Assembly: GCA_027492795.1 (NCBI GenBank)
Contig: JAPUEB010000030.1
Span: 1-64,000 of the forward strand
From: Chryseobacterium sp.
GTDB lineage: Bacteria; Bacteroidota; Bacteroidia; Flavobacteriales; Weeksellaceae
Length of the DNA stretch: 64,000 nucleotides
Direction of reading: 5' to 3'
The stretch's first letter is position 1. Each line of letters begins with the position of its first letter. Below, in pieces: positions 5,963 through 41,052 of this stretch. The notes under the pieces are model-generated. The model made no database searches, had not been told where the DNA came from, and worked only from the letters and a program-made list of their open reading frames with translations. The translations under genes were made by a program, and so were the position numbers.

Positions 5963-5983
5963 AAGAATTAGCCATATTTTTGT

Positions 5984-6035
5984 CATTCCGAAGGAATCTA
6001 AATTTTTTTGTTGAGATTCCTTCGGAATGACAAAA
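5984..6035. repeat. Palindromic repeat, GTCATTCCGAAGGAATCT family
   Basis: Two inverted arms (GTCATTCCGAAGGAATCT and its reverse complement) around a ~14-nt spacer. It sits directly upstream of the M14 peptidase start. The same arms recur at 18777-18836 and 48899-48965, and in variant form inside the two MITE copies (15720-15902 and 47235-47418). Confidence 0.8.
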
Positions 6036-6137
6036 ACCCTGTTTGTTTTCAAAATTAAACAAAAAATCCACGCCGAAACGTGGATTGATTTTTTGCTAAC
6101 AGATTTTCAAAAAAAAATTGTGTTTCTGCATTAAAAA

Positions 6138-18693: not shown

Positions 18694-18776
18694 GTTTGTG
18701 TTGGAGAGTTTGAGTGTTGGAGAGTTTTATTTTTATGTGTTTTAAATTTTTACTAAAAATAATTGCGCAAAATTTG

Positions 18777-18836
18777 TCATTCCGAAGGAATCTAAACAAT
18801 GTGAATTAAACAATTTAGATTCCTTCGGAATGACAA
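18777..18836. repeat. Palindromic repeat, GTCATTCCGAAGGAATCT family
   Basis: Arms GTCATTCCGAAGGAATCTAA and its exact reverse complement flank a ~20-nt loop between mutS and the DUF2809 gene. It is preceded by GCGCAAAATTT, a sequence also present beside the same stem in both MITE copies. Confidence 0.8.
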
Positions 18837-18876
18837 AAAAACTGAAAGATTCTACTTTAACATTGATCTCCCAAAA

Positions 18877-28928: not shown

Positions 28929-29312
28929 TTAATCTTGCAATCCGTTTACAACTCTTTTTACTCCGTTTTTGAAAAGTGGTGAATGAAAGTTTAAAATCAT
29001 TCCCAATTTCAGTTTTGTTAATCTCAGATAGTTGCGAAGTTGAAAGCAGTAATAATCTGTAATTTCTGGAACGGCTTTGTTTTCTACAATTACTTTATCC
29101 TCAACCAGCATATCTACTCTAAAAGCTCTTTCTATTGTGAGTTCTTCATAAATTATTGATATTTCCTTTTGTCTCTCAACTTTTAATCCTGCTTTTTTAA
29201 GTTCATACTCCAAACATTGTTCATAAACACTTTCATAAAGACCTACTCCGAGTTTGCGATGAACTTTCATACCGCAATCAAAAATTATTTTTGAAATCTC
29301 ATTTTCAGTCAT
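28929..29312 (-). CDS. GxxExxY protein (PD-(D/E)XK-like)
   Basis: 127 residues with the family-defining GLYESVY motif (about residues 24-30), followed by YELKKAGLKVERQK, the core FRVDMLVEDKVIVENKA with its Asp and Glu-x-Lys, and the LRNYLRLTKLKLGMILNF segment. This family is PD-(D/E)XK-nuclease-like and very common in Bacteroidota; its function is unknown. The gene interrupts the dcw cluster between murC and ftsQ and is bracketed by direct copies of a repeat, so it looks like an inserted guest. Confidence 0.85.
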   Translation of the reverse strand: MTENEISKIIFDCGMKVHRKLGVGLYESVYEQCLEYELKKAGLKVERQKEISIIYEELTIERAFRVDMLVEDKVIVENKAVPEITDYYCFQLRNYLRLTKLKLGMILNFHSPLFKNGVKRVVNGLQD

Positions 29313-29333: not shown

Positions 29334-29566
29334 TATCGCAAGGTATGCAAGGATTTTTCTAAATCTTTCTGCTGATTACGTCCGCAAAGTCGCTTCGCTC
29401 AGCAATTGGTATTTATTTTTTTAACTCTTTATTTTGTTTATTAAAATTTGTTCTTCTAATCTTTATTACTGATATTTTCGATTGCTAAACGAAGTGCCTT
29501 TGCGTTCAAAAATATTCTCAATCATTTCAAAAACTCTTTGCGTTCTTTGCGATTAAACATTAGTCA
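29334..29566. repeat. GCAAAGGCGC-family inverted pair, right of the GxxExxY gene
   Basis: TATCGCAAGGTATGCAAGG ... CCGCAAAGTCGCTTCGCTCA at 29334-29401 is mirrored by ATTGCTAAACGAAGTGCC ... CTTTGCGATTAAAC at 29481-29566. The right arm runs into the last codons of murC (stop near 29553). No coding frame is visible between them. Confidence 0.75.
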
Positions 29567-30959
29567 GCCAGTTAACAATCGGGTCGTAAAGCGTATCAAT
29601 ATTTCCCGCGCCGACGGTGAGCAAAATGTCAAAATCTTTTTCTTTTATTTTGTTAAATGCTTCGCCCAATGACGAAACTTCTTTTTTATCGTGGTTCACT
29701 TTTTCTAACAACCATTCTGAAGTAATTCCTTCAAAATTTTCTTGAAGTTCTCTTGCAGGATAAATGTCCAACAAAATCAATTCATCACAGTTTTCCAAAC
29801 TTTTAGCAAACCCATCCGCAAAATCTTTCGTTCTGCTGAACAAATGCGGCTGAAATGCAACCAACAACTTTTTATTGGGGTAAAATGTTCTGATGGAACC
29901 AATTACCGCATTCAATTCCGTTGGATGATGCGCGTAATCGTCGATGTAAATTTTACCGTTTTCAAATTGGTTGATGGTGTAACGTCTTTTGATGCCTTTA
30001 AAATTGGAAATTCCTATTTGTAAAGTCTCAAAATCAACGCCCACACTGTTCAAAAGTGCAATTGCAGCCGTCGCGTTTTCCACATTGTGAATTCCTGGGA
30101 TTTGCCAAGCAAATTCTACAGTTTCATCACCTTTGTGAAAATCAAACATCATCCATCCGTCGATGATATGCAGATTATCACTGTAGAAATCGGCTTCCTC
30201 GTTTACTGCGTAAGTTTTGCTCGGTCTTCCAATATCAATGCCTTTTCTTACAAAAAGTTGATTGTTGTCAGGAATTAAAACTGCAAATTCATTAAATCCT
30301 TTTTCAATGGTTTCTACATCACCGTAAATGTCCAAATGATCGGCGTCGTTTGACGTGATAATCGCCCAATCCGGAGAAAGTGTGAGGAAACTTCTGTCGT
30401 ATTCATCAGCTTCCAAAACGGAATATTTGTTTCCATTGTAAAGGAAATTCGATTTGAAATTCTCCGAAATTCCGCCTAAAAAACACGAAAAAGGCAAATT
30501 TGCTTCTTTGCAAAGATGCGCAACCAAAGTTGAGGTTGTGGTTTTTCCGTGTGTTCCTGCAACTGCGATACATTCGGTGTTTTCTGTGATTAAACCGAGA
30601 ACTTTTGCACGTTTTAGAACTTCAAAACCATTATCTCTGAAATAGTCCAAAATTCCCAAAACTTTGATTGCAGGTGTGTAAACAACCAGAGTACTTTCCT
30701 TGTCTAAACTCGCAATTTTTTTATCAATTTTATCTTCAAAAACAATATCAATTCCTTCTGATTGAAGTGCAGCTGTCAGTTTTGTGTGGGTTTTGTCATA
30801 ACCCAAAACATTCTTTCCGGAAGCGTGGAAATAGCGGGCAAGATTGCTCATTCCGATGCCGCCGATACCGACGAAGTAGAAGGTTTCTATATTCCTCACC
30901 CCAACCCTCTCCAAAGGAGAGGGAGTTGATGCGGTGTTATGATTTTGTTCTTGTTGCAT
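29553..30959 (-). CDS. murC: UDP-N-acetylmuramate-L-alanine ligase
   Basis: 468 residues. Mur-ligase layout: UDP-binding FYFVGIGGIGMSN near residue 28, ATP-binding AGTHGKTTTSTLV near 130, then the EADEYDRSFL and YAHHPTEL segments typical of MurC. It adds L-alanine to UDP-MurNAc in the cytoplasm. Residues about 11-23 (STPSPLERVGVRN) are coded by a CCCTCTCC palindrome, so the N-terminus has been replaced or extended by repeat DNA. The last codons overlap a GCAAAGGCGC repeat arm. Confidence 0.95.
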   Translation of the reverse strand: MQQEQNHNTASTPSPLERVGVRNIETFYFVGIGGIGMSNLARYFHASGKNVLGYDKTHTKLTAALQSEGIDIVFEDKIDKKIASLDKESTLVVYTPAIKVLGILDYFRDNGFEVLKRAKVLGLITENTECIAVAGTHGKTTTSTLVAHLCKEANLPFSCFLGGISENFKSNFLYNGNKYSVLEADEYDRSFLTLSPDWAIITSNDADHLDIYGDVETIEKGFNEFAVLIPDNNQLFVRKGIDIGRPSKTYAVNEEADFYSDNLHIIDGWMMFDFHKGDETVEFAWQIPGIHNVENATAAIALLNSVGVDFETLQIGISNFKGIKRRYTINQFENGKIYIDDYAHHPTELNAVIGSIRTFYPNKKLLVAFQPHLFSRTKDFADGFAKSLENCDELILLDIYPARELQENFEGITSEWLLEKVNHDKKEVSSLGEAFNKIKEKDFDILLTVGAGNIDTLYDPIVNWLTNV

Positions 30960-31045
30960 TTTTCAAATTTTTGTTTTGAAAATTCTAAATTTCTTTTGGA
31001 GCACTCATACTTCCCTCTCCTTTGGAGAGGGTTAGGGTGAGGATA
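30905..31045. repeat. CCCTCTCC palindromes at the murC/murG junction
   Basis: CCCTCTCCAAAGGAGAGGG (30905-30923, inside the 5' end of murC) and CCCTCTCCTTTGGAGAGGG (31013-31031, inside the 3' end of murG) with CTCACCC-type flanks face each other across ~90 bp. Both copies are translated. Confidence 0.8.
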
Positions 31046-32190
31046 ATTTCATCCACAATTTCTTCCGCTGCCTTTGGTTTGGCGAAAAATTCTAAATTTT
31101 GGGACATTTCCGTTCTTAATTTTTCATTATCGCAGATTTCTAAAAGTGTCGGCAAAAATTTTTCTTTCATTTCGCTGTCTTTTACCATTCTTGCGGCGTT
31201 TTTATCTACCAATGTTTGGGCATTTTTGGTTTGGTGGTCTTCCGCAGCGAACGGAAACGGCACCAAAAGCACCGGTTTTTTTGCAACCGCCAACTCCGAA
31301 ATTGCGATGGCTCCGGCTCTGGAAACAATGACGTCGGCTGCGGAATATGCTAAAGCCATATCGGAAATGAACTCCTTAACTAGAATCCCCTTTTTCCCCA
31401 AAGGGGAAACATTTCTAATACTATTCTCTACATTTTTATTTTCCAAATTTTGAGATTCATTTTTGCCACCGTTCTCCCCTTTGGGGGAAAGGGGGATTTG
31501 TTTTCCGGTTTGCCAAACTAATTGGTAATCTTTTTCTAAAATTCTATCAATATTTTCTTTCCAGCCGTTATTCAAAGTTCTTGAACCTAACGAACCGCCG
31601 ACTGAAAGAATGGTTAATTTATTTTTATCTAATCCTAATTTTTCTTTTGCTAAATCACTGTCAATTAAATCTGTAATAATATTTTGACGGATTGGATTTC
31701 CAAGGAAATGTGTTTTCGTTCCGTGGAAAAACTTCTCCATATTCGGATATGCCGTGAAAACCGCTTTTGCTTTTTTTGCCAAAAACATATTGGTTTTTCC
31801 CGGCAAAGAATTTTGTTCCTGAACAAAAGTTGGAACGCCTAATTTCGATGCTACAAACAACGCAGGTCCACTCGCAAAACCTCCGGTTCCTACCGCGAAA
31901 TCCGGCTTGAAGTTTTTAATCACTTTTCTCGCTTTCAACCAACTGGAAATCATTTTGAACGGTAATCCGACGTTTTTCAACAAATTTCCTCTGTCGAATC
32001 CGGCGATGTTCAAGCCTTCAATTTTATAGCCTGCGTTTGGAACTTTTTCCATTTCCATTTTTCCATTCGCGCCAATGAACAAAAACTCTGCATCTGGAAA
32101 TCTTCTTTTGATTTCATCGGCAATCGCAACTGCTGGAAAGATGTGTCCTCCAGTTCCGCCGCCGCTCATCAAAACGCGAAAATCCCGCAA
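30985..32190 (-). CDS. murG: UDP-GlcNAc:lipid I N-acetylglucosaminyltransferase, repeat-invaded
   Basis: Makes lipid II at the inner face of the membrane. The N-terminal loop SGGGTGGH and the C-terminal donor-site segment VIVSRAGAIAISELA and FPFAAEDHQTKNA are intact. The frame is open to a TTG at 32256, but no ATG exists upstream of the glycine loop. The likely start is TTG 32190 (401 residues), which gives MRDFRVLMSGGGTGGH and lies inside a 40-nt repeat. About 40 residues of repeat DNA are inserted in frame in the middle (31382-31499), and about 15 at the end. Repeat insertion at three places in an essential gene is unusual; it is presumably still functional because the frame is kept. Confidence 0.9.
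   Translation of the reverse strand: MRDFRVLMSGGGTGGHIFPAVAIADEIKRRFPDAEFLFIGANGKMEMEKVPNAGYKIEGLNIAGFDRGNLLKNVGLPFKMISSWLKARKVIKNFKPDFAVGTGGFASGPALFVASKLGVPTFVQEQNSLPGKTNMFLAKKAKAVFTAYPNMEKFFHGTKTHFLGNPIRQNIITDLIDSDLAKEKLGLDKNKLTILSVGGSLGSRTLNNGWKENIDRILEKDYQLVWQTGKQIPLSPKGENGGKNESQNLENKNVENSIRNVSPLGKKGILVKEFISDMALAYSAADVIVSRAGAIAISELAVAKKPVLLVPFPFAAEDHQTKNAQTLVDKNAARMVKDSEMKEKFLPTLLEICDNEKLRTEMSQNLEFFAKPKAAEEIVDEIILTLTLSKGEGSMSAPKEI
31382..31499. repeat. CCCCTTT/AAAGGGG inverted pair inside murG
   Basis: TCCCCTTTTTCCCCAAAGG (from 31386) and TCTCCCCTTTGGGGGAAAGG (from 31474) face each other across about 65 bp that include the TTTCTAATACTATTC word of this family. The insert is a multiple of three in effect and keeps the murG frame. 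Relatives lie at 38329-38365, 40850-40890 and 41021-41050. Confidence 0.85.
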
Positions 32191-32218
32191 ACTGCTTTTA
32201 CAGTTAGTCCCAAAGGGG
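32179..32218. repeat. 40-nt repeat at the murG start, copy 1
   Basis: Matches 39 of 40 bases of 38465-38504 in opposite orientation. It contains AGTTAGTCCC and CCCGCAAACTGC words. Its edge supplies the likely TTG start codon of murG. Confidence 0.9.
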
Positions 32219-32302
32219 GAAGAATGGTTGGTTTGTATGTTTTTAATAGTTTCCAAAACTTTTTACATTTTTTTTAAGTCCCCTTTGGGGATTTAGGGGA
32301 TA

Positions 32303-33538
32303 CTACGCTATATCATTTATCTCCTCAATACTCTGTTTTTTGCCCATTCCTTCTTCATCATATACCTGAATTCTGGAGCTTACATTTAAAACTAATCCTA
32401 ACTGTATGTAAGTCACTAACATAGAGGTTCCGCCGTAGCTTATTAAAGGTAATGGTTGCCCTGTAACGGGAATTAAATTCACGGCGACGGCTATGTTTAC
32501 CGCAAGTTGCACGAAAATCATAATTCCCATCGCCAAAACCAGTAATGAACCAAAAAAAGCGGGCATTTTACTGGCTATCATTACAATTCGGACAATCATT
32601 ATTAAATACATTGCGATGAGAAATAATGCTCCAAAAAAACCGTATTCTTCTACAATAATTGCAAAAATAAAGTCGGATGCAGATTGCGGAAGCATTTGTT
32701 TCAAAGCGGATTTCCCTGGTCCCATTCCTGTAATTCCGCCGTGAACAATGGCTGCTTTCGCCTGCATTACTTGATAGTTTTTGGCCTTTTCCGCTTCGTC
32801 ATCTATTTGGTTTCCTTTTTTTGCATTGGTGAAGGTTTCAACACGGCTCATCCAAGTGTGAACACGGTTGCTTTTTATTAAGTCCGTTTTTAAGGCAACA
32901 AAAAAGAATAATCCGATGAAAACCGCTGCTGTCGCCATAAAACCTGCAACATATTTCCAGTTGAGTTGTCCCACAACCAAAATTGCCACAGAAACAATCA
33001 TAATCATCAATGCCGTAGAACCGTTATCCTTTGCAACCAAGCCAAAAACCAGCAAAATTGGTCCGAAAATGTACAGGATATTCTCAATCGGAAGTCTTTC
33101 TCTTTTTATTTTTTTGGTTAAATATCTGCAGAGGTAAATTATCAGCATTAAATACGCAAAAGACGATGGTTGAAACGAAATCGGCGTTCCAGGTATTTTT
33201 AACCAACGAGAAGCGCTCGCTCCGTCAATTGTTTGTCCCGTAAACATCGTGAGAACTAGCAAAACGACCATTAAACCAAGCAAAATACTGCTTAATTTTC
33301 CGATATGTTCGTATTTTACGGTTCCTACAAGACGCATAATGCCCAAACCAAGCAATACAAAGAACATGTGCTTGATGACGTGACCTGTTGTTGTTCCGTT
33401 GTTCACGATGTATTCCAAGTTGGAACTTGCAGAATACACTGGGAAAATGGAGAACACAGAAATCACCAAAATCACCATCCAAAGCACTTTGTCGCCCTTT
33501 AGAAATTCAAATTTGTTGTCTGTGGTCTGTTCGTTCAT
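32303..33538 (-). CDS. ftsW: Peptidoglycan polymerase FtsW (SEDS family)
   Basis: 411 residues from ATG 33538; a GTG three codons upstream belongs to a palindromic repeat. About ten membrane helices, with the SEDS hallmarks GASRWLKIPGTPISFQPS, the ATP-independent core region DNGSTALMIM and the late PVTGQPLPLISYGGTSML. It polymerises septal glycan with the class B PBP FtsI. Downstream of murD and upstream of murG on the same strand. Confidence 0.95.
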   Translation of the reverse strand: MNEQTTDNKFEFLKGDKVLWMVILVISVFSIFPVYSASSNLEYIVNNGTTTGHVIKHMFFVLLGLGIMRLVGTVKYEHIGKLSSILLGLMVVLLVLTMFTGQTIDGASASRWLKIPGTPISFQPSSFAYLMLIIYLCRYLTKKIKRERLPIENILYIFGPILLVFGLVAKDNGSTALMIMIVSVAILVVGQLNWKYVAGFMATAAVFIGLFFFVALKTDLIKSNRVHTWMSRVETFTNAKKGNQIDDEAEKAKNYQVMQAKAAIVHGGITGMGPGKSALKQMLPQSASDFIFAIIVEEYGFFGALFLIAMYLIMIVRIVMIASKMPAFFGSLLVLAMGIMIFVQLAVNIAVAVNLIPVTGQPLPLISYGGTSMLVTYIQLGLVLNVSSRIQVYDEEGMGKKQSIEEINDIA

Positions 33539-33540
33539 AA

Positions 33541-33572
33541 TCCTCACCCAAACCTCTCCAAAGGAGAGGGAG
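33541..33572. repeat. CCTCTCC palindrome upstream of ftsW
   Basis: CTCACCCAAACCTCTCCAAAGG and its palindromic continuation AGGAGAGGG lie immediately before the ftsW ATG (minus strand), part of the family at 30905 and 31013. Confidence 0.75.
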
Positions 33573-38328: not shown

Positions 38329-38365
38329 GCCCCTTTCCCCCAAGGGGGAGAAAGTCTCTAATAAA
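38329..38365. repeat. CCCCTTTCCCCCAAGGGGG element between ftsI and murE
   Basis: Begins at the murE start codon and continues with AGAAAGTCTCTAATAAA. Same family as the pair inside murG and those around the ftsL/rsmH junction. Confidence 0.75.
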
Positions 38366-38464
38366 TTATGTTAATAAATGCTTTTCAAAAATTTTGTTTT
38401 ATAATTTTAATATTTAAAATTTTTATTTTAAAATATGATTAAACGTCAGAATTGCCATGGCTCT

Positions 38465-38504
38465 CCCCTTTGGGACTAACTGTGAAAGCAGTTTGCGGGA
38501 TTTT
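38465..38504. repeat. 40-nt repeat at the ftsI end, copy 2
   Basis: Differs at one base of 40 from 32179-32218 (reverse orientation). It overlaps the ftsI stop codon and adjoins a CTCTCCCC word. Confidence 0.9.
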
Positions 38505-40849: not shown

Positions 40850-41052
40850 ATCCCCCTTTCCCCCAAAGGGGAGAAATTCTCTAATACTAATTGTTTTTTC
40901 GTTTTTGAAAATTTAATTTTTTCCTCAAAGTTTGCCAGTTTTATATGAAAAACTCTCTAATACAATTATTTAGGTTTAAATTCTGATAATTCCGACAGAT
41001 TTTTAACATCAAAATTTGCCAGTTTTCTCCCCTTTGGGGGAAAGGGGGACTT
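40850..41052. repeat. CCCCTTT inverted pair between ftsL-like gene and rsmH
   Basis: ATCCCCCTTTCCCCCAAAGG (from 40850) and CTCCCCTTTGGGGGAAAGG (from 41025) bracket about 150 bp of AT-rich DNA. TTCTCTAATACTAATT and TTTGCCAGTTTT words repeat inside. The right arm encodes the last ~12 residues of RsmH. Confidence 0.8.

Follow-up and report, generated by a model that had tools for sequence, protein, structure and literature searches.

Palindromic elements within the murG reading frame of a Chryseobacterium genome, and their relation to elements encoding a DUF559 nuclease

We analysed a stretch of 64,000 nucleotides (hereafter the window) from a Chryseobacterium genome, a 46-contig draft of 2.96 Mb that is most closely related to Weeksellaceae, among them Chryseobacterium and Kaistella. 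Its murG gene, located mid-contig on the minus strand and present as the sole copy in the genome, has a frame that is open from TTG 32256 to 30985 (423 codons). The product is a full-length MurG by profile search (TIGR01133, 285.7 bits against a cut-off of 250.25), with the conserved motifs present. As proposed in an earlier sequence-only reading of the window, repeats have invaded this gene at three places: dispersed palindromic repeats encode residues 1–26, about 254–290 and about 405–423. These stretches and the related features of the neighbourhood, including palindromes of two families (A and B), are as follows.

30985–32256, minus strand: murG, 423 codons from TTG, with three repeat-encoded stretches
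About 32179–32301, minus strand: element of about 123 nt, a palindrome pair at the ftsW/murG junction, providing the TTG start and residues 1–26
32254–32256, minus strand: TTG start codon of murG; the homologous position is ATG in genome G006 and TTG in Chryseobacterium koreense (DNA read by eye)
32179–32218, minus strand: 40-nt variant right end with a nested AACTG..CAGTT hairpin; inverted second copy at 38465–38504
About 31385–31497, minus strand: internal nuclease-less family-B element, 113 nt, encoding IPLSPKGENGGKNESQNLENKNVENSIRNVSPLGKKGI (residues about 254–290)
30893–31043, minus strand: family-A palindrome pair, 151 nt, covering the stop codon of murG and the start codon of murC, encoding the MurG C-terminus LTLTLSKGEGSMSAPKEI and the MurC N-terminus MQQEQNHNTASTPSPLERVGVR
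29553–30959, minus strand: murC, with its start codon and first 22 or so residues within the family-A element
33537–33571, minus strand: lone family-A palindrome where ftsW begins
38329–38504, minus strand: family-B element between ftsI and murE, carrying the second copy of the 40-nt variant end
40852–41048, minus strand: family-B element at the rsmH/ftsL junction, encoding the RsmH C-terminus KVPLSPKGEKTGKF

The element at the ftsW/murG junction has ATCCCCTAAATCCCCAAAGGGGACTT as its left palindrome and an extra hairpin insert in its right palindrome. Its 40-nt variant end does recur at 38465–38504 with one difference, as had been noted (98% identity over 40 nt, inverted), but the TTG start had been placed inside this repeat, whereas TTG 32256 lies 38 nt upstream of it, yet within the larger element. 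Nor is murG devoid of an ATG before the SGGGTGGH loop, as had been claimed: an in-frame ATG at 32169–32167 (V-L-M-SGGGTGGH; residue 30) immediately precedes this glycine loop. We rejected it as the start, since strand 1, modelled at residues 27–33, would be lost, which makes a start inside the N-terminal element likelier. A second in-frame ATG upstream of murG (32268–32266) is directly followed by TAA, and TTG 32256 is a plausible start, as C. koreense also has TTG at this position. The same N-terminal element occupies the same place in G006 and C. koreense, counted as two other genera, and is older than the internal insert. Because G006 uses ATG and C. koreense TTG in the presence of this element, the proposed loss of a normal start codon, plausible as the TTG start is, is not peculiar to this genome.

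The internal element is an inverted family-B pair with its tails pointing outward, each end consisting of the tail ATCCCCCTTT and a CCCCC-AAA-GGGG hairpin, and it holds both family-B subterminal motifs, GGTGGCAA and TCTAATACTA. It lies in the loop between WQTGK and FISDM and codes for about 37–40 MurG residues, in line with the roughly 40 repeat-derived residues estimated before, but compared with the relatives measured, the loop has gained only 18–69 nt (144 vs 75–126 nt). This small net growth is explained by native loop residues that are missing in this murG, so that the insert is not a clean insertion. None of the aligned Weeksellaceae MurGs contains it. The corresponding WQTGK–FIxDM loop carries a TTGTCAGTTGTCAG inverted repeat in G006 and a TGGAAGATGGAAG/CTTCCATCTTCCA repeat in G035, other relatives having short variable loops, and it is a hot spot. 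A repeat encoding NQQPTTDNQ is found in the leuS loop of both G006 (L267) and G035 (L263), and again in the murG loop of G006 (L013); the leuS and murG loops thus receive different repeat families in different species.

At the other end of the gene, the family-A pair encodes the last residues of MurG (about 405–423), as the sequence-only reading had stated, and beyond that claim it also forms the N-terminus of MurC (residues about 1–22). An AlphaFold2 model of MurG shows an intact MurG fold (mean pLDDT 87), with E. coli MurG (1f0k) as the best PDB match. The pLDDT exceeds 80, and mostly 90, in the core, and is below 65 in the insert and the N-terminus, falling below 50 for residues 1–12, 16–20 and 269–283. 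In the model, the insert and the N-terminus form disordered appendages while the fold itself is intact. The MurG that carries the insert is presumably made and active. Structural modelling of the insert, suggested earlier as a check, thus gives a disordered loop. Together with the intact frame and the absence of the insert from the aligned relatives, it bears out the earlier view that palindromes behave here as coding insertions. Alignment with relatives, where an insert shared by all would have indicated an old domain, gives a divided answer: the internal insert is absent from all aligned relatives, while the N-terminal one is shared by G006 and C. koreense.

Family-A palindromes are composed of CCTCACCCCAA plus CCCTCTCC-AAA-GGAGAGGG. 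Pattern searches allowing at most two mismatches found 38 family-A and 33 family-B arms in the 2.96-Mb genome, and none with reversed control patterns. Family-B pairs mostly measure 94–199 bp, with 74–596 nt between arm starts, and in many members the two ends differ in their subterminal motif, one carrying TGTGGCAA and the other TCTCTAATACTA. By a simple motif test, five of the 13 complete family-B pairs have one motif of each kind, five a single motif, one the same motif twice and two neither; the murG element and a 616-bp element in leuS each contain both. The 13 pairs show no target-site duplication (36 observed vs 39.3 expected, p 0.82). A search for frames that stay open through the palindromes shows further coding insertions of families A and B in leuS (two sites), ileS, a response regulator, a copper-type P-ATPase, alpha-2-macroglobulin-type proteins and a C39-peptidase ABC transporter (two).

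The two further family-B elements of the window (38329–38504 and 40852–41048) lie in the same cell-wall cluster as murG. Elsewhere in the genome, a 455-bp family-B pair (L171; G000 C34:11143–11597) is built of tandem units in its interior and includes a stretch of N; it looks like an array that is expanding or was poorly assembled. The window also holds paired GTCATTCCGNAGGAATCT repeats at 5977–6036, 18773–18837, 47283 and 48899, which are reminiscent of CGTC-type REPs.

The 616-bp leuS element is the sole one of the 13 complete family-B pairs with a substantial interior ORF. This ORF, of roughly 200 codons, is a DUF559 endonuclease (PF04480, E 2.5e-35) that lies in frame within the 1222-codon leuS frame, with both palindromes read through. 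The palindromes, previously seen as free-standing repeats, are thus related to nuclease-encoding elements, since the leuS element shares their ends. The catalytic-type residues D63, E74 and D76 are invariant, and dN/dS values of 0.13–0.25, covering the pairs with unsaturated dS, show that the nuclease is under purifying selection. The nearest solved homologues of the nuclease model are 3hrl (NGO0050) and 3r3p (the homing endonuclease I-Bth0305I).

Ten genomes carry an in-frame DUF559 at the same leuS site, with inserts of 480–630 nt that are multiples of three in all ten cases. In most relatives this site is empty, with just a short loop, and G012 retains a nuclease-less family-B remnant there. 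At the second leuS site, G018 has a B-type nuclease-less insert and this genome a family-A palindrome. The nucleases of G018 and G030 are 82% identical and their LeuS hosts 71/63%, which points to horizontal transfer. Between this genome and G167, LeuS is 89/83% identical, but the nucleases are only 52% identical and the palindromes differ, which points to one site having been filled on separate occasions. From these comparisons, a single conserved site appears to have been filled across lineages by horizontal gain, the pattern that marks a homing element. Inspection of the junctions by eye revealed no splicing motifs (Cys/Ser or HN(C/S/T)) in the DUF559 inserts, whose ends, also read by eye, are palindrome-encoded (PLSPKGEN...SPLGERG).

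DUF559 is present in half of 148 Weeksellaceae genomes, and many of the copies lie inside frames of about 900–1260 codons: those of metH, of type I restriction genes and of leuS, in the last case at one conserved site; in-frame copies in such large frames occur likewise across Bacteroidota. To measure the linkage to palindromes, we reverse-complemented the right flank of every DUF559 gene, aligned it locally to the left flank and counted scores of at least 15. Inverted palindromes flank the gene in 23 of 29 Weeksellaceae loci, 17 of 26 from Bacteroidota and 6 of 12 from other phyla, whereas none of 67 distal flanks and none of 27 murG controls reached this score. No flanking palindromes were found for the DUF559 genes of E. 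coli, Sinorhizobium, Methylobacterium and Shinella. In the nuclease tree, clades follow palindrome type and host gene, not species. For family A, the link to the nuclease comes from relatives and not from this genome.

Some neighbouring observations concern other nuclease genes and other repeats. A second DUF559 gene of this genome (L192; G000 C7:36069–36380) lies between purH and purN and has another palindrome type (ATTCCCCTCTTTTTTAAAGAGGGGTGGC...). On a plasmid of Deinococcus psychrotolerans (L287), DUF559 lies between paaD and paaZ with near-identical inverted repeats of about 70 nt. The window further contains a GxxExxY (TIGR04256) gene at 28929–29312 on the minus strand. Each of the five copies of this gene in the genome has repeats on both sides (e.g. 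CCACAAAAGTCACAAAAG, GCCACGAATGCACGAAT and CGCAAAG), most of which score well above the distal-flank controls; this suggests a parallel nuclease–repeat pairing. We rejected the GxxExxY nuclease as the partner of families A and B, given that the repeats around its genes are different.

The look of paired, inverted short palindromes recalls REPINs, and the elements might be ordinary REP/REPIN sequences moved by RAYT (Y1 HUH) transposases, some landing in genes and DUF559 being a chance passenger. REPs within genes are already known (PMC3733652), the lack of target-site duplication in family B fits, and this genome has six Y1_Tnp genes above the family cut-off and one weaker match. However, six of these seven genes are flanked by their own, different palindromes, no family-A or family-B hairpin lies within 1.5 kb of any of the seven, and the linkage of DUF559 to palindromes recurs across phyla while the palindromes are clade-specific. 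A RAYT partnership was rejected for families A and B because the Y1_Tnp flanks of this genome hold other palindromes, and we regard the REP/REPIN explanation as a whole as unlikely. Derivation as MITEs from a conventional DDE insertion sequence, which we consider very unlikely, would match the inverted ends, variable interior and dispersed copies, but neither the missing target-site duplications nor ends that are themselves palindromic agree with it, and the only sizeable ORF seen between ends of this kind encodes the DUF559 nuclease.

Two further readings concern murG itself. The insert could be an old functional loop or domain retained for its own role in MurG, given an intact murG frame and a loop that varies among relatives and is somewhat enlarged in several of them. 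An ancient domain was rejected since no aligned relative has it; the insert moreover has the sequence of a dispersed repeat and is modelled as disordered, so that a role of this kind seems highly improbable. An error of assembly or sequencing, or decay of murG into a pseudogene, is scarcely credible either. The draft state of the genome, the non-ATG start and the other repeat copies, which might mislead assembly, would speak for it. Against it stand 423 open codons with conserved motifs in the only murG copy of the genome, mid-contig, and the in-frame occurrence of the same element types in leuS, ileS, the response regulator and other genes, as well as in leuS of other genera.

We consider it probable that small mobile palindromic elements, translated along with the gene, make up the murG inserts, and that the internal one is a nuclease-less (MITE-like) copy of the DUF559-element family that spread in a nuclease-driven, homing-style manner and is tolerated as a disordered loop. 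The larger family member encodes, between the same two ends, a DUF559 endonuclease with the predicted Vsr/I-Bth0305I homing-endonuclease fold. This nuclease would cut chosen sites, for example the leuS loop, and the element would be copied in when the break is repaired. Empty copies with the same ends may be transported likewise, and selection would retain only in-frame insertions at tolerant surface loops or gene ends, of which the WQTGK–FISDM loop of MurG may be one. As there is no sign of splicing, an insertion into an essential gene would survive only with an open frame and in a tolerant loop or at a gene end. The DUF559 nuclease presumably mobilises the elements, but its gene, present in only one of the 13 complete family-B pairs, could also be carried passively between palindromes that another agent moves.

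Whether the elements exemplify a widespread class could go either way. Such a class would comprise non-splicing, palindrome-ended selfish elements, driven by DUF559 (Vsr/I-Bth0305I-type) nucleases, that insert in frame into essential bacterial genes, and its nuclease-less derivatives would account for many of the coding and extragenic palindromes without a known transposase in Bacteroidota and other phyla. There is a substantial chance that murG-type elements form a class of their own. If so, intein-like parasites would persist unspliced in essential enzymes (LeuS, IleS, MurG, MurC) and core proteins would gain disordered loops and new termini, with a bearing on start-site annotation and on tRNA synthetases labelled "DUF559 domain-containing". 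In the literature searched, we found no report that connects DUF559 nucleases to palindromic ends, or to insertion in frame within essential genes, although the incomplete coverage makes this weak evidence.

Coding palindromes as such are known from Rickettsia palindromic elements (RPEs), which measure about 100–150 bp and have entered many genes in frame, unrelated ones and often essential ones (PMC10969869). The elements described here likewise are palindromic and lie in frame within protein genes. RPEs, likened here by description, belong to another phylum and presumably differ in sequence. The source names no mobilising enzyme for them, whereas the matching larger element here encodes a DUF559 nuclease, and this partner is the new point. 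REP/REPIN sequences and RAYTs share with our elements the short, dispersed palindromes, often in inverted pairs and sometimes in genes (PMC3733652). They differ in that the partner here is a PD-(D/E)XK/Vsr-type nuclease and not a Y1 HUH transposase, the RAYTs of this genome accompany other palindromes and the spacer length is highly variable. CGTC-tagged REPs, some of which are coding, have been described without a dedicated transposase (PMC3733652); the ends of families A and B lack the CGTC tag. For such transposase-less short palindromes, which had no identified driver, the link to a homing-type nuclease offers a testable one in several phyla.

Bacterial MITEs similarly occur as nuclease-less copies with inverted ends alongside a coding-competent relative, which in our case is the DUF559 element and not an insertion sequence; no target-site duplication was detected and no DDE transposase was found here. 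The nearest functionally characterised fold is that of I-Bth0305I (3r3p) and the Vsr-like homing endonucleases of introns and inteins. No intron or intein is seen in the present case, where the insert stays in frame and has palindromic ends. What the two systems have in common is the repeated occupation of one essential-gene site and horizontal transfer into that site.
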